Source: Paraburkholderia phenazinium | GTDB taxonomy: Bacteria > Pseudomonadota > Gammaproteobacteria > Burkholderiales > Burkholderiaceae | Length of the DNA stretch: 64,000 nucleotides | Direction of reading: 5' to 3' | Assembly: GCF_900141745.1 (NCBI RefSeq) | Contig: NZ_FSRM01000002.1 | Coordinates: 2,418,001-2,482,000 of the forward strand | Shown: one piece after another, positions 16,020 to 33,653 of the stretch | How the letters are laid out: each line of letters opens with the position of its first letter | Numbering within the stretch: the first letter of the stretch is position 1 | Position numbers and translations under genes: made by a program | Notes under the pieces: model-generated | Databases searched by the model: none | Told to the model about the DNA's origin: nothing | What the model saw: the letters and a program-made list of their open reading frames with translations, nothing else

Positions 16020-16251
16020 CGCAGCAAACCGGGTGACGGGAGACTGATTTCGATGGGGACAGTATAGACGCCAGGGCGCGGGGTCGGTCTTGGTCAAAAG
16101 TGCTGTTTGACATGCGGAATGTTGCTCGGTGCCACTGTGGCTGAGGCTTTTGCCGGACGGCTCCGCAACGTGCTTACGCGAAATCTTTGTAGAATGGCGT
16201 TGTCCGACCCCGCTTCGATTCACGACAACACTTTCAAGAGATCCATCGATC

Positions 16252-16734
16252 ATGGCGCCGCCCAAGTCCCCTTCCGAGCCGACGCCACCCACGCAGGTCG
16301 ATATATCCACGTATGAGTTCTCGGAGCAGATCGGTCATCTGCTGCGCCGGGCCTACCAGCGCCACCTCGCGATCTTCGCGCAGACCATCGACGATCCTCA
16401 ATTGACGGCGGTGCAGTTCGCGGTGCTCAGTGCGAACCGGCGGCTCGGGCCTTCGTCAATGAGCGATCTCGGCAAGGCGACGGCCATCGATGGGGCGACC
16501 GTGCGCGGCATCATCGAACGTCTGCAGGCACGCGGGCTTGTGGAGTTGCAAGCCAATCAGGACGATCGGCGCAAGAGCGTGGTAGAACTCACGGAGCGCG
16601 GGCGCCAGTTGCTCGAACTGACCACGCCGACCGCTGCGCGTATCAGCGAACTCACGATGAGCGATCTCAACGCTGTCGAGCGGGTGGCGGTGTTGTATCT
16701 GCTACGCAAGCTTTGCGGTCCTGAGCTGGAGTAG
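16252..16734 (+). CDS. MarR-family transcriptional regulator
   Basis: 160 aa winged-helix protein: dimerisation helices at both ends (SEQIGHLLRRAYQRHLAIF near 22) and a central wHTH (MSDLGKATAIDGATVRGIIE near 73, wing ANQDDRRKSVVELTERGRQL near 105). The ATG at 16252 removes 41 open codons that look non-coding. It is divergent from alaX and 362 bp upstream of, and co-directional with, the ABC importer/QPRTase operon, so it is the best candidate regulator of that operon, responding to an aromatic or pyridine ligand as many MarR proteins do (inference). Confidence 0.88.
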   Translation: MAPPKSPSEPTPPTQVDISTYEFSEQIGHLLRRAYQRHLAIFAQTIDDPQLTAVQFAVLSANRRLGPSSMSDLGKATAIDGATVRGIIERLQARGLVELQANQDDRRKSVVELTERGRQLLELTTPTAARISELTMSDLNAVERVAVLYLLRKLCGPELE

Positions 16735-17096
16735 CGCAGACGTTTGCGAGCGCCGGTGTGCCTGCGCCTGGCAGTGCACCAAGCGTGGGCCGAATCTGAA
16801 AAGTGCGCATTTATAGTGTGTACATGTTGTTTGATGGTGCGGCCTGTTTCTGCGGCGGTGCTTGCTTTGAGCGCCTCAAGCACGATCGTTCGAAATGCAG
16901 AACGTTGAATTTAAAGGGGTTGACGCATTTTTTCCGGCCATTGAACCGGATCGGGTAAACACCGCTAACAGTGGCATAGAGGTTGCAACTAAGCTTGGAA
17001 TTACCGCGTGTACGCTCATTTGACACTTATAGATCGAGCGCTTTGGCGGTACCCAGCTTCTATAGCCGTCTGATTTCGTGATCGGGAGTGCTCTAT
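16735..17096. other. Promoter-side gap of the importer/QPRTase operon
   Basis: 362 bp without a gene. It has a lower GC content than its neighbours and should contain the promoter of the operon starting at 17097. A TTGACA hexamer lies near 17020, but no convincing -10 partner and no clear MarR palindrome could be assigned by eye. Confidence 0.5.
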
Positions 17097-18101
17097 ATGA
17101 AGTGGTTCGTCAGGCAGATCGGCGCAGCGCTCGGCGCGTCGTTCCTGCTATCGGTGGCCGGTGTGTTCTGCGGGTCCGTCAGCGTCACGCAGGCGGATGA
17201 AATCTCCGTCACGCAGTGGGGCAGCAGCCTCTACGGCCTTCCGTATGCCGTCGCGATGGACAGAGGCCTGTTCAAGAAGGCCGGCGTCGACATCACCGGC
17301 ATTCTCACCTCGAGCGGCGGCGGCACGACCGTGCGCAATATCCTCGCCAGCAAGACACCGTACGGCGAAGTCGCAGTCGCGGCCGCGCTTGCCGCGCAGC
17401 GCCAGGGGATGGATCTCGTCATCGTGAATGTCGGCACGCGCAGCGTCGCGGAGGCGTCGATGGTTGCCATGCCCAACGGCAACGTGCAAACCGTTGCTGA
17501 TCTGGCCGGCAAGAAGGTCGCGATTACGTCGCCCCGAGGCGTGTCCGAAATGCTGTTGCTGATGGTGCTCAAGCAAAAGGGCGTCGACGCAGGCAAGGTG
17601 ACCCGCGTCGCCTCGGGTGGCTACGTCAACGGTCTGACGATGCTTGAGCAGGGGGCCGTCTCCGGTGCAGTGCTGATTGAACCGCTTTCGATTGTGCGCA
17701 AAGCCAATTACCGCACCGTGTACCGGGCGGGCGACATTCTGCAGCCCATGACCACCTCGGTCGGCATTACCACCCGCGAGTTCGCCAGGTCCCACCCGGA
17801 TGAGTTGCGGGCGATCATTGCCGGGCGGCGTTCGGGTGTGGATGCGTTGTACGCGGATCCGGCCGGAGCCGCGAAACTACTGGAGACAAGCTTCAAACTC
17901 ACGCCAGACGTCGCACGCGAAGCCGTGGACAACATGGTCAAGTCACGCATGTGGAGCGACGGTGAATTCAACCGCGGTGAACTTGACCGCATGACGGACG
18001 GCCTGAAGCTTGTAGGCGAGCTGAACGGCGATGTCGACTGGTCGAAGCTGGTCGACACGAGCTTTCTGCCCCCCGATCTGAAAGCGAAGAGTACGCTATG
18101 A
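17097..18101 (+). CDS. ABC transporter substrate-binding protein (NitT/TauT/SsuA type)
   Basis: 334 aa with a signal region (hydrophobic GAALGASFLLSVAGVFCGSV, mature near QADEISVTQW). The fold is that of SsuA/TauA/ThiY proteins: WGSSLYGLPYAVAMDRGLFK, then ITGILTSSGGGTTVRNILAS and ADLAGKKVAITSPRGVSEML near 140. Such proteins bind sulfonates, nitrate, thiamine precursors or phthalate-like aromatic acids; which one applies cannot be read directly. The ATG at 17097 follows GGGAG. It overlaps the ATPase start (ATGA) and leads a seven-gene same-strand run. Confidence 0.88.
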   Translation: MKWFVRQIGAALGASFLLSVAGVFCGSVSVTQADEISVTQWGSSLYGLPYAVAMDRGLFKKAGVDITGILTSSGGGTTVRNILASKTPYGEVAVAAALAAQRQGMDLVIVNVGTRSVAEASMVAMPNGNVQTVADLAGKKVAITSPRGVSEMLLLMVLKQKGVDAGKVTRVASGGYVNGLTMLEQGAVSGAVLIEPLSIVRKANYRTVYRAGDILQPMTTSVGITTREFARSHPDELRAIIAGRRSGVDALYADPAGAAKLLETSFKLTPDVAREAVDNMVKSRMWSDGEFNRGELDRMTDGLKLVGELNGDVDWSKLVDTSFLPPDLKAKSTL

Positions 18102-18955
18102 AGGCACGCAACGGTCATCCGACACTGCAGGTTGTCGAGTCGCCTGCGCAACAGGCGCCGGCCTCGCCCGAGGCGCATGTCGAGCTAACCGGCGTTACCC
18201 GCTATTTCACACGCAGCGATTCGAAGGAACTGTTTCATGCGCTCGGCCCGATCGATCTCACGCTGACCAAGGGCGAGTTCTTCTCGGTGGTCGGTCCGTC
18301 CGGATGTGGCAAGTCCACTCTGCTCGATGCGCTTGCGGGACTCTCCAGACCCAGCTCCGGCACGGTAATGTTCGAAGGACAACCTGTGACGGGCGTGCCC
18401 GATGGAGTAGGCGTCGTGTTCCAGGAAGACGCGTCTTTTCCATGGCTGAATCTGCGCGACAACATTTCGTTCGGACTGCGCATGGCGGGCGTGGATGGCG
18501 CCGAGATTCAGCGGCGGGTTGACTATGCGATGGGTTTCATGGGCCTGAAGGATTTCGCCAAGGCGTATCCTTCGCAGTTGTCGGGCGGCATGCGGCAACG
18601 CGTGTGCATCGCCCGAACGCTGGTGTTGCAGCCTCGCCTGATTTTGCTCGATGAGCCGTTCGGCGCGCTCGATCAGCAAACACGCCTGCTGATGGGCGAC
18701 GAGTTGCTGCGCCTGTGGCGCGAAACGTCTGCCACGGTGCTGCTGATCACCCACGCACTCGACGAAGCGGCGATGCTGTCCGACCGGGTCGGCGTGATGT
18801 CGGCGCGGCCCGGGCTCTTCATCGATATCGTCGAGACCGGCTGGGAGCGTTCGCGCGATAGCCGCGTCGTCTCGACACCGCGCTTCGGCGAGATCAATGC
18901 CCGCCTGTGGGAGAAGCTGCGTGTCGAATCATTGAAGGTGATGGGCGCGCACTAG
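18098..18955 (+). CDS. ABC transporter ATP-binding protein (SsuB/TauB type)
   Basis: 285 aa. Walker A GPSGCGKST near residue 66, Q-loop VVFQEDASFPWLNLRDN near 107, signature LSGGMRQR near 160, Walker B LILLDEPFGALD near 178 and switch LLITHALDEA near 214. The sequence type is the NitT/TauT group, consistent with the preceding binding protein and two following permeases. The first ~30 residues are a variable extension. It overlaps the previous gene by four bases. Confidence 0.92.
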   Translation: MKARNGHPTLQVVESPAQQAPASPEAHVELTGVTRYFTRSDSKELFHALGPIDLTLTKGEFFSVVGPSGCGKSTLLDALAGLSRPSSGTVMFEGQPVTGVPDGVGVVFQEDASFPWLNLRDNISFGLRMAGVDGAEIQRRVDYAMGFMGLKDFAKAYPSQLSGGMRQRVCIARTLVLQPRLILLDEPFGALDQQTRLLMGDELLRLWRETSATVLLITHALDEAAMLSDRVGVMSARPGLFIDIVETGWERSRDSRVVSTPRFGEINARLWEKLRVESLKVMGAH

Positions 18956-19003
18956 GTGCGCAGTGTTTTTCGCAGTATTTCTATGCGAACCTGGGAGTTC
19001 GAA

Positions 19004-19753
19004 GTGAAGACGGAAAGTCTGATCCGTATCGCTGTGGTGGTTGGCTTCATCGTGCTGATCGAGCTGCTGTGCCGCAGCGGCATCATTGCGCCGAGCGTGC
19101 TGATTGCGCCATCCGCGATGTTCACGCATGGCATCGAGCTGCTGCGCGGCGGCAAATTCGACTACGACATTGTTACGAGTCTGATCGAGATCGTCGCCGC
19201 GTCGATTGTCTCCGTGCTGCTCGGTTTCGTCCTGGGTCTCGGCATTCACGCGCTACCGTCGCTGCGCCGCTCGATCGAACCGCTGCTGTCGAGCTACTAC
19301 GCCATCCCCACCTTCATTTTCTATCCCATCTTTATCGTCGTGCTCGGCGTCGGCTCGCTGCCGATCATTGCCATTGCCGTGATGCTTTCGGTGGTGACGA
19401 TGATTACCGCGACGCTAAACGGACTCGACCGCATTCCGCGCGCCTTGCATAAAAGCGCTCAGGTGATGCGTCTTTCGCCGTGGCGTTGCGCGCTTCATAT
19501 CAAGCTGCCTGCCACGCTGCCGTATCTGTTCACCGGCGTGAAGCTTGCGGTGGCCTATGCGTTCATCGGCGTGATCGCATCGGAATTCATCCTGTCCGGT
19601 TCGGGTATCGGCTATGCAATCGGTTACGCATACAACAACTTCCAGAACGACGACATGTATTCGCTGATGCTGTTCGTGCTCGTGCTGGTGACGCTCGTCA
19701 ACGCCGTGCTGAACCGGATCGATCAACGGTTTCAGTCGCGCCGGCAACGCTAG
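19004..19753 (+). CDS. ABC transporter permease 1 of the importer/QPRTase operon
   Basis: About 249 aa with six hydrophobic spans and the permease loop in SAQVMRLSPWRCALHIKLPA near residue 165 (from the frame start). The frame opens at 18956; I choose GTG 19004 because GGGAG sits seven bases upstream and the protein then begins just before the first membrane helix (LIRIAVVVGFIVLIELL); ATG 18983 is the alternative. Two different permeases, this one and the next, would form a heterodimeric channel, which is not the usual SsuC/TauC homodimer. Confidence 0.85.
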   Translation: MKTESLIRIAVVVGFIVLIELLCRSGIIAPSVLIAPSAMFTHGIELLRGGKFDYDIVTSLIEIVAASIVSVLLGFVLGLGIHALPSLRRSIEPLLSSYYAIPTFIFYPIFIVVLGVGSLPIIAIAVMLSVVTMITATLNGLDRIPRALHKSAQVMRLSPWRCALHIKLPATLPYLFTGVKLAVAYAFIGVIASEFILSGSGIGYAIGYAYNNFQNDDMYSLMLFVLVLVTLVNAVLNRIDQRFQSRRQR

Positions 19754-19778: not shown

Positions 19779-20510
19779 ATGAAAAAATTCCTCGATCCGC
19801 TGCTGGTTGCGCTGGCCATTGTCGTTTGCTGGCAATGCCTGCACTGGGCGATCGGCGAGCATTCGTTGAGTTCGCCATGGAGCACGCTCGAGGCGCTGGC
19901 CCAGATGCTCGGCACCGAAGCATTCTGGGGCAACGTCGCGGAGACCGCCCGTGCCCTTGTCTATGCACTCTTGATAGCACTGATCGGCGGGGTGGCGCTT
20001 GGTGTACTGTTCGGCATCAACCGCATGTCGGGCCGCGTCGCGGAGCCGATTCTGTTGAACCTGTATTCGCTGCCGAAGGTGACGTTGTATCCCCTGGTGT
20101 TGCTCGTATTTGGCCTCGGCCTGTCGGCGAAAGTGGCCTTTGGCGTGATGCACGGCCTGATCCCGATCCTGATGTTCACGATGAATGCGATCCGCCAGAT
20201 GCGGCCGGTCTATCTGCGTGCGTCGAAGACCATGCGTCTGTCGTTTTTCCGTACGATTGTGCATGTCGTGCTGCCGGCGATCTTTCCGGAGGTGGTTGCC
20301 GGCCTGCGGCTCGGCTTCTCGTTGACTTTACTGGGCGTGCTGATCGGCGAGATGTTCGCCTCGCAGCGCGGGCTAGGTTATATGCTGACCAGTGCGATGA
20401 ACCTTGGGGATATCCGCACGATCATGGCAGTTGCCCTGTTTCTTACCGTGTTTGCCCTCGCATGTAACGGCCTCCTGATGATGGCCGACCGGCGCATGAA
20501 GCACCGATGA
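19779..20510 (+). CDS. ABC transporter permease 2 of the importer/QPRTase operon
   Basis: 243 aa, about six membrane segments, with the permease loop RASKTMRLSFFRTIVHVVLP near residue 148 and the RLGFSLTLLGVLIGEMFAS segment near 178. GGAG precedes the ATG by eight bases; it lies 25 bp after permease 1. It is diverged from permease 1 but belongs to the same NitT/TauT permease group. Confidence 0.88.
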   Translation: MKKFLDPLLVALAIVVCWQCLHWAIGEHSLSSPWSTLEALAQMLGTEAFWGNVAETARALVYALLIALIGGVALGVLFGINRMSGRVAEPILLNLYSLPKVTLYPLVLLVFGLGLSAKVAFGVMHGLIPILMFTMNAIRQMRPVYLRASKTMRLSFFRTIVHVVLPAIFPEVVAGLRLGFSLTLLGVLIGEMFASQRGLGYMLTSAMNLGDIRTIMAVALFLTVFALACNGLLMMADRRMKHR

Positions 20511-20568: not shown

Positions 20569-21405
20569 ATGTACGATGTATTCCAGACGGATCGCCTGAT
20601 CGATCTTTGGCTGACCGAAGATATCGGCTATTGCGACCTCACTGCGCAACTGATGATCGAAGCGGACGAGACCGGCGCTTTCTTCATGAACGCGCGCGAG
20701 ACACTGATCGTGGCCGGCATCGACGTGGCGGCGCGCATCTTCAAACGCTATGACCCGACGCTCGAAGTGTCGGTGCGCGTGAAAGACGGGCAAAAGGTGG
20801 AGCGGGGCACGGTGATGCTCAATGTGAGCGGCACGGCGCGCAGCGTACTGACGGCTGAGCGCACTGCGCTCAATATCGTGCAACGGCTGTCGGGGATTGC
20901 CAATCTCACCGAGCAATATGTTGCGGCGGTGGCGGGCACGCGGGCGCGTCTGATCGATACACGCAAAACTACGCCAGGTCTGCGCATGCTGGAAAAGCAC
21001 GCGGTGACCTGCGGTGGCGGCCTGAATCACCGTCTCGGGCTCGATAACGGTGTGATGATCAAGGACAACCATATTGCCGTGTGCGGTGGCATCGCCAAGG
21101 CCGTGCAGCGCGCGCGCCGGCAATTGCCGGTGCTGACCAAGCTGGAAGTCGAATGCGACCGCCTTGAGCAGGTCAAGGAGGCGCTGGATGCCGGTGTCGA
21201 TGTGATCATGCTCGATAACATGTCCGTCGAGGACATGACCCGCGCGGTGGAACTGGTCGGCCGACGCGTGTTGCTGGAAGCGTCCGGGGGCATCAGCCTC
21301 GCGACCATCGGTGCGGTGGCGAAGACCGGCGTCGATTACATCTCCACCAGCAAGATCAATCAGGCGGCGGCGTGCGTCGACATTGGTCTCGACGAGGCCG
21401 AGTGA
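20569..21405 (+). CDS. nadC: Nicotinate-nucleotide diphosphorylase (QPRTase), NadC family
   Basis: 278 aa. NadC converts quinolinate and PRPP to nicotinate mononucleotide, CO2 and PPi. The active-site blocks are all visible: RLIDTRKTTPGLRMLEKHAV near 124, GGGLNHRLGLDNGVMIKDNH near 147, EVE near 193, DNMSVEDM near 216 and LEASGGI near 236, ending with DYISTSKI. It is somewhat shorter at the N-terminus than housekeeping NadC. It sits between an importer and a PRPP-forming fusion protein, not next to nadA/nadB, so it may serve salvage or a related pyridine/pyrimidine acid rather than de novo NAD synthesis. A role like ModD is possible but the transporter is not of the molybdate type. Confidence 0.88.
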   Translation: MYDVFQTDRLIDLWLTEDIGYCDLTAQLMIEADETGAFFMNARETLIVAGIDVAARIFKRYDPTLEVSVRVKDGQKVERGTVMLNVSGTARSVLTAERTALNIVQRLSGIANLTEQYVAAVAGTRARLIDTRKTTPGLRMLEKHAVTCGGGLNHRLGLDNGVMIKDNHIAVCGGIAKAVQRARRQLPVLTKLEVECDRLEQVKEALDAGVDVIMLDNMSVEDMTRAVELVGRRVLLEASGGISLATIGAVAKTGVDYISTSKINQAAACVDIGLDEAE

Positions 21406-21441: not shown

Positions 21442-23211
21442 ATGGCCTCCGGCATTCTCTTCTTCGTGGTGGGTCCGAGCGGCGCCGGCAAGGATGCGCT
21501 GATCGAGGGCGCGCGTCATCTCGCAGACCGGTTCTGCTTTGCCCGTCGCGTGATTACCCGGCCCGCGGGGTCGCCCGGCGAGAATCACGAAGCGCTCGAT
21601 GAAGCGGCATTCGCCGAACTCGAGCGTACCGGTGCTTTCCTGATCTCCTGGTCGGCACACGGTCTGCGCTATGGCCTGCGGCGTGAATTGCTCGACGTAT
21701 TGGCCGAAGGCCGGCATGTGATTGCAAACGGCTCGCGCGGCATGATTGCGGAGTTGGCGGCGCGGGTGCCGGGCATGGTGGTGATCGAAGTGAGTGCGCC
21801 GCATGAAATGCTGGCCGCGCGAATTCTGGCGCGTGGCCGGGAAACACCCGAGCAGGTGCGCCTGAGAGTGCAACGCCAGGTTGAAGCGCATACGGCGGAT
21901 GTGCCCACCGTGCAGGTTTTCAATGACGGCACGTTGCAGCAAGGCATCGCGCGTTTCATTGCAGCGCTCGAACGCGCCATTCTTCCACCACCTGCGAGTG
22001 CCCCGTTTCTGCGTGCCAAGCTGGCGGGCGACGCGCTCAATGAGGCTCAATACGATGCGTTGTTCGACGACATGCTGGCGTTGCGCTACGCCGAGAGCGA
22101 CATCAACCGCTTTCTGCTGCATGCGTGCGAGCATCTGAGCGACGCGGAGGTGTTGGCGCTTGCCAAAACCCGCACCAGGCTGATGCCGCGCATAGAGTGG
22201 AACGAACCGATTGTCGTCGACAAGCATTCGATGGGCGGCATTCCCGGCAGCCGGATCACGCTGATCGTGGTGCCGATTGTCGCGGCCTACGGCCTGGCGA
22301 TGCCGAAGACTTCCTCGCGCGCCATTACCTCCGCCGCCGGCACCGCCGATGCGATGGAGACGCTCGCGCGCGTCGACCTGACGGCGGAGGACGTGCGGCG
22401 CTGCGTCCATGAAGCGCGGGCCTGCATTGCGTGGAATGGCCGTCTGAATCATTCGCTGGTCGACGAGCGGATCAACGCATTCACGCGGCCGCTTGGGCTG
22501 GCGTCCAACCGTTGGTCGGTGGCGTCGATCCTGTCGAAAAAGTGCTCTGCTGGATCGACGCACGTAATGGTCGATCTTCCGTGCGGGCCGCGCGCCAAGC
22601 TGAAAACCAGCGAGGAAGCGCGCTCGCTTGGCGATCTGTTCGAATACGTCGGCAATGGGCTGGGGGTGACGGTCAAGGCGCTGGTGACCGATGGCACGGC
22701 GCCGATCGGCCGCGGTATCGGCCCTGCGCTCGAGGTCCGCGACGTGGGTCTGGTGCTCGATAACCATCCCGATGCGCCCGTCGACCTGCGTGACAAGGCA
22801 TTGACATTTGCCGCGCATATTCTGGCATGGGCACCGGATGTGCAGGACGTAGCCGACGGCAAGCGGATTGCCGCAGAGCTGCTGGCAAGCGGTGCAGCGC
22901 GCGCGGCGTTCGAACGGATCGTCGATTCGCAGGGGCGGCATGCATCGCCGGCGTTACCTGCACGAGAGGTCCGTGATGTCATGGCCACGCATGCAGGCAT
23001 CGTCACGTCGATCGATGGCTGGCTGATCGCGGAGATCGCGCGTGAAGCGGGCGCGCCCGCAGACGCCGGCGCTGGCATCGACCTGCTGTGCAGGATCGGC
23101 CAGACGGTGGCGGCAGGCGAGCCGCTGTATCGGGTTCACGGCAACGAGACGGGCGCGCTCGAGCGCGCAATGCGTATGGCGGCGCGCGATTCGGCCTGCA
23201 GGATCGAGTGA
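21442..23211 (+). CDS. Fusion: PhnN-type ribose 1,5-bisphosphokinase + thymidine/AMP phosphorylase family
   Basis: 589 aa, two enzymes in one chain. Residues 1 to ~182 match PhnN, which phosphorylates ribose 1,5-bisphosphate to PRPP: Walker A GPSGAGKD (11-18), ITRPAGSPGENHEAL near 38, LISWSAHGLRYGLR near 67, NGSR near 96 and RGRE near 131. Residues ~188-585 match the AMP phosphorylase-like group of thymidine phosphorylases: helical domain ~190-250, phosphate loop VVDKHSMGGIPGSR (258-271), KTSSRAITSAAGTADAME (289-306) and GNGLGVTVKALVTDG near 404. The N-terminal ~85-residue domain usual in the stand-alone phosphorylases appears to be replaced by the kinase. Inferred joint reaction: NMP + Pi to base + ribose 1,5-bisphosphate, then PRPP. 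It is 36 bp after nadC. There is no stop or frame change at the join. Confidence 0.88.
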   Translation: MASGILFFVVGPSGAGKDALIEGARHLADRFCFARRVITRPAGSPGENHEALDEAAFAELERTGAFLISWSAHGLRYGLRRELLDVLAEGRHVIANGSRGMIAELAARVPGMVVIEVSAPHEMLAARILARGRETPEQVRLRVQRQVEAHTADVPTVQVFNDGTLQQGIARFIAALERAILPPPASAPFLRAKLAGDALNEAQYDALFDDMLALRYAESDINRFLLHACEHLSDAEVLALAKTRTRLMPRIEWNEPIVVDKHSMGGIPGSRITLIVVPIVAAYGLAMPKTSSRAITSAAGTADAMETLARVDLTAEDVRRCVHEARACIAWNGRLNHSLVDERINAFTRPLGLASNRWSVASILSKKCSAGSTHVMVDLPCGPRAKLKTSEEARSLGDLFEYVGNGLGVTVKALVTDGTAPIGRGIGPALEVRDVGLVLDNHPDAPVDLRDKALTFAAHILAWAPDVQDVADGKRIAAELLASGAARAAFERIVDSQGRHASPALPAREVRDVMATHAGIVTSIDGWLIAEIAREAGAPADAGAGIDLLCRIGQTVAAGEPLYRVHGNETGALERAMRMAARDSACRIE

Positions 23212-23263
23212 CCCAATCGGGTGGGTTCGAACTGAATGACGCAACCAGATGAGGGGGAGCAAG

Positions 23264-24067
23264 GTGAAGACGACGGTGGTTTCGAGTTGGCAGCAGTTCA
23301 TGAGTTTGACTGCCGAGCTCGATGGCTGGGCATTTCGTGGTCAGCAGGATGCCAACTGGTTGTTGCAGAGTTCGCTGTCACGTTACCTTGCGGCCTTTGT
23401 GCCCGACCGCTCGACATGGCGCATTCAGGAGCAGCGCGCCATCCGTATCTTTCGCCGCAAGGCCCACAACTATCTCTCCGATGTGCGCGCGCTATCGGAC
23501 GATCTGCGCTGCCTCGGCCTGATGCAGCACCATGGCGCACCAACCCGGATGCTCGATTTCACGAAGTCGCCCTTCGTTGCGGCTTTCTTTGCGCTGGAGC
23601 GCGCGGTTTCGGATGCCGCGATTTTCGCGGTGAATACGCCGGCCCTATGGACTAACCGCGCCATTCCGGCGAGCACGCCGCATCTCACGCGCGACATGAT
23701 CGATCCGCGCCGCAAAGGCAACTTCGAAAAATTCTTTCTGACCGACAAGAATCCGGTGATCTGGTTTGGCGAGCCGTCGGAGATGGATCAGCGGCTGATT
23801 GCCCAGGCCGGCACCTTCGTCTTGCCCGGTTTGCTGCAAAAGCCGCTTGATGAAATCCTTAACAATTACTCAAGCGATGACGAACTGCTGCGCAAGATCG
23901 TCCTGCCGCGCGCGGTCCGGGACGATGCCATGCGTGCGCTCTACCGGATGAACATTACCAACGCGTCGTTGTTTCCGGATATGGAGGGGCTTGCGCGCTC
24001 GATTGCGCTGGAGCTGGAGATGGTCTGGCCGACGGTTGACCGGATCGCCCCGCCAACAAGGCAGTAG
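23264..24067 (+). CDS. FRG-domain protein
   Basis: 267 aa. The FRG domain is recognisable from WAFRGQQDANWLLQSSLSRY (F24-R25-G26) and the later MQHHGAPTRMLDFTKSPFVA (~90-110) followed by AAFFALE. FRG proteins are widespread and poorly characterised; some occur in defence and toxin contexts. The GTG at 23264 follows AGGGGGAG; an in-frame ATG at 23249 lies inside that ribosome binding site and is less likely. It is only 52 bp after the kinase-phosphorylase fusion and probably shares its transcript, which is an unusual setting for this domain. Confidence 0.78.
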   Translation: MKTTVVSSWQQFMSLTAELDGWAFRGQQDANWLLQSSLSRYLAAFVPDRSTWRIQEQRAIRIFRRKAHNYLSDVRALSDDLRCLGLMQHHGAPTRMLDFTKSPFVAAFFALERAVSDAAIFAVNTPALWTNRAIPASTPHLTRDMIDPRRKGNFEKFFLTDKNPVIWFGEPSEMDQRLIAQAGTFVLPGLLQKPLDEILNNYSSDDELLRKIVLPRAVRDDAMRALYRMNITNASLFPDMEGLARSIALELEMVWPTVDRIAPPTRQ

Positions 24068-24121: not shown

Positions 24122-24181
24122 TCGTACACTTGCGCTAGCAGAATAATGATTAATTGCGCATTTAACGATTCAGGAGACGAC

Positions 24182-25501
24182 ATGGAATCCGTTCAACCCA
24201 CCGAGGCGCCTGGCGGTACCGCTCCGCGTCTTTCGAAGTTCGGCGCGGTACTGCGCGTGACGAGCGGCAATTTCCTCGAACAATTCGACTTCTTCCTGTT
24301 CGGCTTCTACGCCACGTACATCGCGAAGACGTTTTTCCCGGCCGCCAGCGAGTTCGCCTCGCTGATGCAGACCTTCGCCGTCTTCGGGGCCGGCTTCCTG
24401 ATGCGGCCGTTAGGGGCGATCGTTCTCGGTGCATATATCGACAAGGTGGGGCGCCGCCGCGGCCTGATCGTCACACTGGCGATCATGGCGAGCGGCACGA
24501 TCCTGATCGCGATTGTGCCGGGCTTCGCCACGATCGGTCTGCTGGCGCCGGCATTGGTCCTTCTGGGCCGTCTGCTGCAGGGCTTTTCCGCGGGAGCGGA
24601 GCTGGGCGGCGTGTCGGTCTATCTGGCCGAAATGGCGACACCCGGCAAGAAAGGCTTTTACACGTCATGGCAGTCGGCCAGCCAGCAGGTAGCGATCGTC
24701 GTGGCGGCGGCACTCGGCTATGCGCTGAACCTGCTGCTGACGTCTGCGCAAATCGGTGCCTGGGGCTGGCGCCTGCCGTTCCTGATCGGTTGCTTGATCG
24801 TGCCGTTCCTGTACGTGCTGCGCCGCTCGCTGCAGGAAACCGCTGAGTTCCAGGCGCGCCGGCATCATCCGGCGACGGCTGAAGTGTTCCGCTCGATGCT
24901 GACCAACTGGAAGACCGTCATTGCCGGGATGATGATGGTCGCGATGACCACGACCACGTTCTACCTGATCACCGTCTATACGCCGACCTTCGGCCGCGCC
25001 GTGCTGCATCTGAGCACATCGGACGCGCTCGTCGTCACGCTGCTGGTGGGCGTATCGAACTTTATCTGGCTGCCTATCGGCGGGGCGATCTCGGATCGTA
25101 TCGGCCGGCGTCCACTGTTGCTGTTCATTTCCGCGCTGGCCATCGTGACGGCGTATCCGGCATTGGAATGGCTCGCGCATGCGCCGAGCTTCCTGCGCAT
25201 GCTGACCGTGCTGCTGTATTTCTCGTTCTTCTTCGGTGCCTACAACGGTGCGATGGTGCCGGCCTTGACCGAGGTGATGCCAGTCGAGGTGCGGGTGGCC
25301 GGCTTCTCGCTCGCGTTCAGTCTGGCAACCGCAATTTTTGGCGGATTCACCCCGGCCGTTTCGACTTTCCTGATCGAGATGACCGGCGACAAGGCCGCGC
25401 CCGCCTATTGGCTGATCTTTGCGGCCCTGTGCGGTTTCGTGGCGACGCTGGTGCTGTATCGCCGCGGCGGCGCGGCCGAGTTGCAGGCGAAACTGGGGTG
25501 A
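24182..25501 (+). CDS. MFS transporter, metabolite:H+ symporter type (citrate/tricarballylate-like)
   Basis: 439 aa with 12 predicted membrane spans. The N-terminus ([20 protein letters not shown], then [11 protein letters not shown]) and the [20 protein letters not shown] loop between TM2 and TM3 are those of the MHS subfamily closest to CitA/TcuC citrate or tricarballylate symporters. [20 protein letters not shown] marks TM4-5. AGGAGA precedes the ATG at 24182; 12 open codons upstream are not used. It lies 114 bp after the FRG gene and could belong to the same unit or be independent. Substrate is probably a polycarboxylate. Confidence 0.88.
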
Positions 25502-31923: not shown

Positions 31924-33537
31924 TCAGGGCGCAGCGTCCACGTCTTCGTCTTCAACGCTCATGGCCCGGCCATCGCTGCGGGGGTCGTGCGCACCGTAGG
32001 CGGTGCCGTCCGCATCGATTCGTATCGCGCCGGGATGGCCCGCAAGCGGACTTTGTGCCGGGATCGCGCTCACATCATGACCGCGTGCGGCCAGCGCCGC
32101 GAATACGTCGGGGCCGGCATCCTCTTCGAGTTTGAGCGCATCGCGTGTGTCCGAGAAGGTCTTGCCGAGTAGAAAGCGCGGACGGGCGAGGGCGCTGAGC
32201 GGGTCCATGCCGTAGTCGATCACGCGCGTGAGCACGGCCGCGAGCGTTTGCGGTTGACCATCTGCTCCTTGCGTGCCGAACAGCAGGTGCGGACGTCCAT
32301 CCTTCAGATACATGCCGGGGTTAAGCGTGTGAAATGGCCGCTTGCCAGGCTGCAATGCATTGTGATGCGTGGGATCGGTGCTGAACGATGCGCCGCGGTT
32401 GTGCCACAGAATCCCGGTGTCGCCTGCGACGACGCCACTGCCCCAGTCGAAGTAGACCGTCTGCAGGACGCTGACGCTGCGGCCGTCGCGATCCGTGGCG
32501 CCGATGAACACCGTGTCGCCGGGGCGAAACACATGCGGCCAGGGACGCGCGGTCTGCATGCTGATGGAGCGGGCATGAGCGTCGAGCGTGGCATCCGCGA
32601 GCATCGTGTCGACCGGTACAGTCCGGAAATCCGGATCGCAGACGAAGCGGTCCCGGTCGATGAACGCGCACTTCACCGCTTCCACAAGCAGATGGTAATA
32701 GTCGGCGCTGCCTTCTGCGATGGATCCGAGATCGAAGCGTTCGAGGATGCCCATGATCTGCAAGGTCGTGACACCTTGCGTGGGCGGGCGCATGCTTACC
32801 AGTTCACCGCCACGATAGGCGACGCGCACGGGAGGCTCGCCGCGTGCGCGGGTTTTCGCGAGGTCGGCTTGTGTCAGTGGCGAGCCGGCTTCCTGCAAGC
32901 CGCGCGCGATTCGTCCGGCCAGTTCGCCCTCATAAAACTCGCGCGCACCGAAGCGCGCGATGTGCTCGAGGCTACGTGCCAGCGCGGGTTGGACGAAGCG
33001 ATCGCCGATGGCAGGAATCCGGCCGTCTGGTGCAAACGTCTTCGAGAAGCCCGGCAGTGCCTGCAGTTCGCCCGCACGCAGACTTTGCCAGAAGTGCTGC
33101 GAGGGCGTGATGGGAAAGCCGTTGGAAGCGTAATCGATCGCCTTTGCGAACAGCGTCGACCAGGGCGTTTGGCCTTGCCATGCAGACTGGCTGATCGCAT
33201 ACACCTGATCCCATGTGTCGACGGTCGCCGCTGTGGTTAGCGCGGCTGCAGCGCCGCGCACAGGGATGGCGCCGGAGAACGCAGGCAGTGCAGCCGCCGC
33301 CTGGCCGATGCCCGACACGGTGCGCAACAGGCCGTTGCGATCGCCGATCACCCAGAATGCGTCACCACCGAGGCCGGTGAAATGCGGGTAGGTCACACCT
33401 AGCGCTGCGCCGATGGCGATCGCCGCCTCGATTGCATTGCCGCCTGTGCGCAGCACATCGAGCCCCGCGGCGCTGGCCAGCGCATGCGGACTGGTAACCA
33501 TGCCTCCATTGGAACAGGCGAGTTTTGGGTTGTGCAT
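31924..33537 (-). CDS. Gamma-glutamyltransferase family protein
   Basis: 537 aa from the ATG at 33537 (GGAG upstream; 18 further open codons ignored). The Ntn-hydrolase fold of gamma-glutamyltranspeptidase is clear: N-terminal MVTSPHALASAAGLDVLRTG, TGLGGDAFWV near 54 and the processing site RPGDTVFIGATDRDG, where Thr342 aligns with the catalytic N-terminal threonine of E. coli Ggt (T391). Downstream GSGVVAGDTGILWHNRG is canonical. No signal peptide is seen, so it may be cytoplasmic, unlike classical periplasmic Ggt. It converges on the GntR gene with 32 bp between and may hydrolyse a gamma-glutamyl derivative made or imported by the neighbouring cluster. Confidence 0.88.
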   Translation of the reverse strand: MHNPKLACSNGGMVTSPHALASAAGLDVLRTGGNAIEAAIAIGAALGVTYPHFTGLGGDAFWVIGDRNGLLRTVSGIGQAAAALPAFSGAIPVRGAAAALTTAATVDTWDQVYAISQSAWQGQTPWSTLFAKAIDYASNGFPITPSQHFWQSLRAGELQALPGFSKTFAPDGRIPAIGDRFVQPALARSLEHIARFGAREFYEGELAGRIARGLQEAGSPLTQADLAKTRARGEPPVRVAYRGGELVSMRPPTQGVTTLQIMGILERFDLGSIAEGSADYYHLLVEAVKCAFIDRDRFVCDPDFRTVPVDTMLADATLDAHARSISMQTARPWPHVFRPGDTVFIGATDRDGRSVSVLQTVYFDWGSGVVAGDTGILWHNRGASFSTDPTHHNALQPGKRPFHTLNPGMYLKDGRPHLLFGTQGADGQPQTLAAVLTRVIDYGMDPLSALARPRFLLGKTFSDTRDALKLEEDAGPDVFAALAARGHDVSAIPAQSPLAGHPGAIRIDADGTAYGAHDPRSDGRAMSVEDEDVDAAP

Positions 33538-33653
33538 CGGAACTCCGGTACGGCAGAGGTGCCGCTCTGTGTCCGAGTATAGAGGGCACATCAGCGCTGG
33601 AAAAGTGCAGATGGCGTGATACGGCGCATCTGTGCTTTTGCGTGTCTCCGCGC

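Follow-up and report, generated by a model that had tools for sequence, protein, structure and literature searches.

The window, by which we mean the whole stretch of 64,000 nucleotides of Paraburkholderia phenazinium DNA analysed here, carries on its plus strand genes for a MarR-family regulator, an ABC importer, the quinolinate phosphoribosyltransferase NadC, a fused protein and an FRG-domain protein. The fused protein (589 aa, 21442-23211, plus strand) is encoded by a frame with no internal stop and joins a PhnN kinase to an AMP-phosphorylase-like enzyme. The features are the following:

16129-16734, plus strand: MarR-family regulator, related to that of the G439 nic cluster, with 6pco/6pcp as best solved relatives; the ATG at 16252 is probably the true start
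17088-18101, plus strand: NitT/TauT-type ABC substrate-binding protein (NMT1/SsuA-like, PF09084), with a relative in 7 of 16 fusion loci
18098-18955, plus strand: ABC transporter ATPase
18956-19753, plus strand: ABC transporter permease 1
19779-20510, plus strand: ABC transporter permease 2
20569-21405, plus strand: NadC, quinolinate phosphoribosyltransferase (TIGR00078), the only nadC found in its own genome
21442-23211, plus strand: PhnN-phosphorylase fusion, 589 aa, from the open frame and profile matches
21451-21972, plus strand: PhnN half of the fusion, residues 4-177 (TIGR02322), with Walker A at 21472-21495
21988-23208, plus strand: phosphorylase half of the fusion, residues 183-589, AMP-phosphorylase-like but lacking an N domain (NF003338; TIGR02645 from position 83)
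22171-22476, plus strand: stretch of the phosphorylase half with the fused-clade residues R244, S263, N332, H337 and N345, from the alignment
23249-24067, plus strand: FRG-domain protein, possibly with an ADP-ribosyltransferase-like fold

The PhnN half of the window fusion matches TIGR02322 over residues 4-177 with 167.2 bits, above the equivalog cut-off of 156, and ten further fusions score 164-192 bits, the cut-off being passed by all 11 fusions scanned. The phosphorylase half matches NF003338, a family of bacterial proteins named 'thymidine phosphorylase' and related to AMP phosphorylase, with 548.5 bits (cut-off 434). Both halves lie above their cut-offs, and this confirms the preliminary description, which had read the frame as PhnN joined to an AMP-phosphorylase-like enzyme. 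The motifs it quoted are also present, namely Walker A (residues 11-18), ENH (47-49), NGSR (96-99) and RGRE (131-134) in the PhnN half, and VDKHSMGG (259-266) and TSSRAIT...AGTADAM (290-305) in the phosphorylase half. Its description of the phosphorylase as complete holds for the family assignment but not for the length, since the TIGR02645 match begins only at profile position 83 and an N domain of about 80 residues is therefore absent.

Comparison with 18 stand-alone PhnN-like proteins (same-genus search matches, taken without a profile check) gave 33 positions of the PhnN half that are common to at least 15 of the 16 fusions and to at least 17 of the 18 stand-alone proteins; Walker A and the family-conserved residues are kept, and two positions differ (67 and 72). 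The half thus resembles PhnN of the TIGR02322 family both in profile score and in these positions, and differs from it in having a phosphorylase in the same chain and nadC as its neighbour. A separate PhnN-like gene, with a product 38% identical to the fusion PhnN, lies elsewhere in the same genome. In the phosphorylase half the phosphate-loop and SILSKK motifs are retained, and the alignment shows the conserved residues intact in both halves, which supports the consecutive-activity logic put forward earlier, in which ribose 1,5-bisphosphate from one half is the substrate of PhnN and the sequence ends in PRPP. A structure model of the fusion, built from a three-row alignment, reached a pLDDT of 40 and was unusable.

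We found 16 fusion loci, in the Burkholderiales, in an alphaproteobacterium and in further members of the phylum; they come from genome samples, one scan of genome contigs and a plasmid collection, so their number should not be read as a census. Within the genus, 6 of 117 genomes carry the fusion, its own included, the other five at 94, 89, 78, 73 and 59% identity, and among named records the nearest belong to a Paraburkholderia MAG (94%) and to Burkholderia sp. 4M9327F10 (89%). In samples drawn evenly, where each match over the E-value limit was opened and checked for PhnN, the fusion is present in 5/398 genomes of the phylum (G000, G439, G496, G565 and G575), in 4/385 of the class of G575 (G575, G637, G899 and G923) and in 1/369 of the window's own class (G000). 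Three fusions are plasmid-borne (Variovorax SRS16, Paraburkholderia 22B1P and the alphaproteobacterium Pacificitalea manganoxidans), and the search of viral contigs for relatives of the fusion gave a single match, one distant phosphorylase. An artefact of sequencing, which the preliminary description named as a possible refutation, or of assembly, by which two genes would have been run together, is refuted by these conserved homologues, and we regard its probability as negligible: a single uninterrupted frame is found at 16 loci whose identity goes down to about 44%, both in the genus-mates listed above and in other families.

The fusions fall into two size classes of eight each, 589-612 aa and 678-718 aa (with script-chosen start codons), the additional sequence of the long class being located between the PhnN and phosphorylase halves. 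Three members of the long class (L184, L183 and L108) match TIGR02645 from position 1-4, and the remaining five from position 22-57. In a tree with 39 un-fused proteins (every second of 78), the fused phosphorylase halves form one clade with an SH-aLRT of 99, obtained with a quick method.

The key context, overlooked in the preliminary description, is the neighbouring nadC, which is found directly upstream of the fusion, on the same strand and with a gap of 3-41 bp (script-chosen starts), at all 16 loci. The window NadC matches TIGR00078 with 321.6 bits (cut-off 198.4), and an assignment as ModD was discarded, as TIGR01334 gives 123 bits, below its cut-off of 178.85. In the alignment the NadC of the module retains ER..N, DTRKT, NHR, IKDNH, EVE and LDN, which we take to be the conserved active-site motifs of NadC, and no column separates the 16 fusion-linked NadC proteins from the 17 other NadC rows. 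In the NadC tree, from which four duplicate rows were dropped, all 16 linked proteins group in a single clade (98/98) within which four unlinked ones are nested, and therefore the fusion was at times lost or left behind. Compared with the NadC of nadA-nadB loci, the module protein is ordinary by profile and active site, but belongs to a separate clade and sits with the fusion.

Fourteen genomes of the genus were searched for the usual nad genes; nadA and nadB are both present in all of them, and nadC lies between the two in ten. In G000, G059, G048 and G079 the matched nadA and nadB stretches are about 170-385 bp apart with nadC absent between them, and no nadC remnant or pseudogene was found in this interval in any of the four (L206-L209). 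The module NadC stands in for the missing usual nadC in these four genomes: it is the only nadC of two genomes that are 100% complete, G000 and G079, and the sole copy seen in G059 (86% complete), and in G048 a second module-type copy is present. In G000 and G079 it must therefore make NaMN from quinolinate.

Module-type NadC is also seen in other surroundings. L057 (from G027) and L058 (from G113) combine it with the same type of ABC importer without a fusion, and at L056:9309-11023 it adjoins a DapB-like reductase, near gene families in common with L058; these families resemble an anthranilate-dioxygenase cluster in L058.

The un-fused relatives of the phosphorylase, 123 loci from the same searches of which 119 are distinct, most of them with flanks of 1.5-3 kb, served as control. 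NadC is found in 0/119 distinct loci, a PRK07199-type ribose-phosphate diphosphokinase (PRPP synthetase) in 99/119, and a separate PhnN-like gene in two, where some 9 kb to each side contain no NadC; the corresponding counts for the first 87 loci (83 distinct) were 0, 67 and 2. The diphosphokinase is absent from all 16 fusion loci. The phosphorylase subfamily thus generally accompanies a PRPP enzyme, and the fused clade switches to PhnN and NadC. The un-fused gene with its PRK07199-type diphosphokinase is in itself a widespread pair: it belongs to the same NF003338 subfamily as the fusion half and likewise has a PRPP enzyme as partner, but differs in the adjacent PRPP synthetase, in the lack of NadC and in never having four of the residues described below.

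Five residues of the phosphorylase half (R244, S263, N332, H337 and N345) are invariant in 16/16 fused proteins and absent from the 78 un-fused ones aligned, at least 76 of which have M, C, G, L and I, respectively, at these positions. When all 119 distinct un-fused proteins are considered, R244, N332, H337 and N345 occur in none and S263 in four. H337 replaces L/F and N345 replaces I/V of the un-fused proteins. In the DeoA-type phosphorylase of the same genome the position of N345 is occupied by the YAxRD-motif tyrosine, a residue that presumably lines the base pocket. We infer from this alignment that the fused-clade residues belong to the base site, where the exchange of L and I for polar side chains would favour a carboxylated pyridine over a neutral base.

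The best solved relative of residues 183-589 is the protein of 4ga4/4ga5, which we take to be the archaeal AMP phosphorylase (about 249 bits); the fusion keeps its phosphate-loop motifs, but lacks its N domain and has N332, H337 and N345 where 4ga5 has G, L and I. The window fusion scores 343.9 bits against TIGR03327, the archaeal AMP phosphorylase equivalog, under the cut-off of 535, and ten other fusions score 338-417 bits. An identity as an ordinary AMP phosphorylase was rejected, the cut-off being missed by 11/11 fusions scanned.

These observations bear on the substrates proposed in the preliminary description. According to this explanation, the fusion would salvage AMP, CMP or UMP to PRPP, which would be supplied to the neighbouring NadC for NAD synthesis. 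This is consistent with the fold family, that of AMP phosphorylase, with the PRPP requirement of NadC, of which the module copy is the only one in G000 and G079, and with the un-fused relatives, which pair with a PRPP enzyme as well (99/119 distinct loci). However, the fused-only residues, H337 and N345 among them, make AMP, CMP and UMP less likely substrates, as does the AMP phosphorylase cut-off, reached by 0/11 fusions (344 against 535 bits in the window), and nucleotide salvage leaves the importers, the regulator and the nicC linkage unexplained. In our view it is an unlikely explanation.

We propose instead that the fusion regenerates PRPP within a module for quinolinate utilisation and that NaMN is the substrate of the phosphorylase, to which we give an even chance. 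Several lines of context point towards nicotinate. Among solved structures, 6pco/6pcp are the best relatives of the window MarR, with 149 bits, the next protein giving 81 bits; we assume these entries to be Bordetella BpsR, which binds 6-hydroxynicotinate. They are also the best solved relatives of the G496 module MarR and of the MarR of the G439 nic cluster, the three searched including that of the window. The window MarR is 50% identical to the G439 nic-cluster MarR, and at 9/16 loci the module MarR shows 50-77% identity to it. The G565 module MarR is weaker in this respect (38%), and that of the Variovorax locus is unrelated (21% identity, and at 1e-8 no match among solved structures). Nor does the regulator type mark nic clusters strictly, since in G575 the nic-cluster MarR resembles 2nnn more than 6pcp. 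When 12 upstream stretches of modules and nic genes were compared for palindromes by a simple method, no shared operator rose above shuffles.

A physical link is seen in G496, where nicC, an MFS gene, nadC, the fusion and a SIR2-like gene follow each other on one strand. Divergent from them are genes for a 2Fe-2S protein and a molybdopterin/cytochrome c protein, which we take to resemble those of NicA and NicB. The nicC product matches the 6-hydroxynicotinate 3-monooxygenase 5eow with 571 bits. In G439 and G575, nicC with isochorismatase-like and Amdase-family genes is found elsewhere in the genome, and we read these groups as probable nic clusters from their gene content. Known nic clusters start from nicotinate. 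The module shares with them a related MarR, and in G496 adjoining nicC and nicA/nicB-like genes; it differs in that its entry would be quinolinate and in that the six same-genus fusion genomes have no NicC.

A recognised importer is present at 15 of the 16 fusion loci: ABC in seven, TRAP-TAXI in four, MFS in three (G027, G439 and G496) and a TTT-type binding protein in one; an MFS match in L183 was taken as a distant family match, since that locus has an ABC importer. At the G565 locus no importer was recognised among the genes scanned, which cover part of the locus. For the ligand of the ABC importer, the solved relatives gave weak matches only. A TcuC-like tricarballylate/proton symporter gene (24146-25501) adjoins the module in the window and in L006, and was not seen in L007, L053, L054 and L055. 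Upstream of the module in L055 (7285-8829) lies an sCache_2 chemoreceptor gene, suggesting an extracellular attractant, and a gene of the window at 31924-33591 resembles, by its translation, gamma-glutamyltransferase.

The last gene of the group encodes the FRG protein, present at 11/16 fusion loci, and a SIR2-like protein is encoded beside the fusion at 2/16 (L109:7479-8684 and L184:7825-9024), both of which lack an FRG gene in the flanks retrieved. At three loci the retrieved flanks contain neither gene. In a PADLOC scan of six proteins the window FRG protein (23249-24067) matched the PDC-S15 models, and its AlphaFold model weakly resembles the ADP-ribosyltransferase fold; FRG may be an NAD+-using family. 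A unit of NAD homeostasis or defence, in which FRG or the SIR2-like protein consumes NAD+ while NadC and the fusion replenish or deplete the nucleotide pool, would account for this association, for the weak fold likeness and for the PADLOC matches. It would not account for the loci with neither gene, nor for the importers that accompany the module and the catabolic genes in G496, and the phosphorylase would oppose NAD synthesis if NaMN is its substrate. We consider such a unit very unlikely.

In the proposed quinolinate loop, the importer (ABC in the window; TRAP, MFS or TTT-type elsewhere) would bring in quinolinate, which NadC would convert with PRPP to NaMN, CO2 and PPi. With Pi, the phosphorylase half would then release nicotinate from NaMN and leave ribose 1,5-bisphosphate, which would pass between the two halves of the fusion, the PhnN half using it with ATP to give PRPP and ADP. 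The net conversion would be quinolinate + Pi + ATP to nicotinate + CO2 + PPi + ADP, with PRPP acting catalytically. The NadC step is proposed because of the family of the protein and the loss of the usual nadC, and the PhnN step because of the PhnN family. Because a glycosidic bond to a pyridinium ring is rich in energy, phosphorolysis of NaMN should proceed in the direction of ribose 1,5-bisphosphate. The joining of the phosphorylase and PhnN activities in one chain fits an intermediate better left unreleased.

In favour of the loop we count the nadC linkage at 16/16 fusion loci against 0/119 distinct un-fused ones, the active-site motifs kept by this NadC, its being the sole nadC of G000 and G079, the MarR kin of the nic regulator, nicC in G496, the nic-type clusters of G439 and G575, the PhnN cut-off passed in 11/11, the fused-specific residues and the importer class, which differs between loci. 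Against it, NAPRTase-family genes are widespread (11/13 fusion genomes and 20/20 un-fused genus-mates), so nicotinate could be wastefully rejoined to PRPP; an absence of NAPRTase as a sign that this futile loop is avoided was considered and rejected, given the 11 carriers. In addition, a module NadC that is the only copy must also supply NAD synthesis, from which a NaMN phosphorylase would divert the NadC product. The four fusion-less NadC proteins inside the module clade count against the loop, and so do the six fusion loci where such a MarR is absent from the fetched flanks, or where an unrelated or weaker one is present. NicC was found in 0/6 same-genus fusion genomes, the window's own included, G048 having only a 41% relative, which is a further point against; the NicC search left out G899, G637, G923 and the three plasmid hosts. 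A co-occurrence of fusion and NicC within the genus was therefore dropped, NicC being found in 4/20 un-fused genus-mates (at least 64% identity). Finally, we know of no NaMN phosphorylase activity in the AMP-phosphorylase superfamily.

The ligand of NadC and the phosphorylase is a prediction from sequence, and the same loop could serve a quinolinate analogue, such as a pyridine or azole carboxylate, that is activated, decarboxylated and released while PRPP is regenerated. The 6pco/6pcp-type regulator, with its presumed binding of 6-hydroxynicotinate, and the other catabolic-type genes around the G565 and Variovorax loci would suit such a ligand, but in G000 and G079 NadC alone serves NAD synthesis and hence accepts quinolinate, and no residue is peculiar to the linked NadC proteins. 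We think an analogue quite improbable.

Taken in full, the quinolinate reading describes a loop that to our knowledge is previously unrecognised, in which a pyridine dicarboxylate would be activated with PRPP and decarboxylated by NadC, nicotinate freed by phosphorolysis and PRPP regenerated by the fused kinase; in such a loop PRPP would be a catalytic handle in catabolism and NaMN a catabolic intermediate. For this complete scheme we hold a tentative expectation, somewhat short of even.

If the loop is true, ribose 1,5-bisphosphate and PhnN would gain a role outside phosphonate breakdown, and NMP-phosphorylase chemistry would have another fate beside the archaeal RuBisCO route. It would also point to FRG proteins as possible NAD+-using enzymes, and for annotators the 'PhnN' records of Variovorax and Pacificitalea would be two-part proteins of a NadC module. 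Bacteria carrying it would have a way to obtain nicotinate from quinolinate that needs no decarboxylase acting on the free ring.
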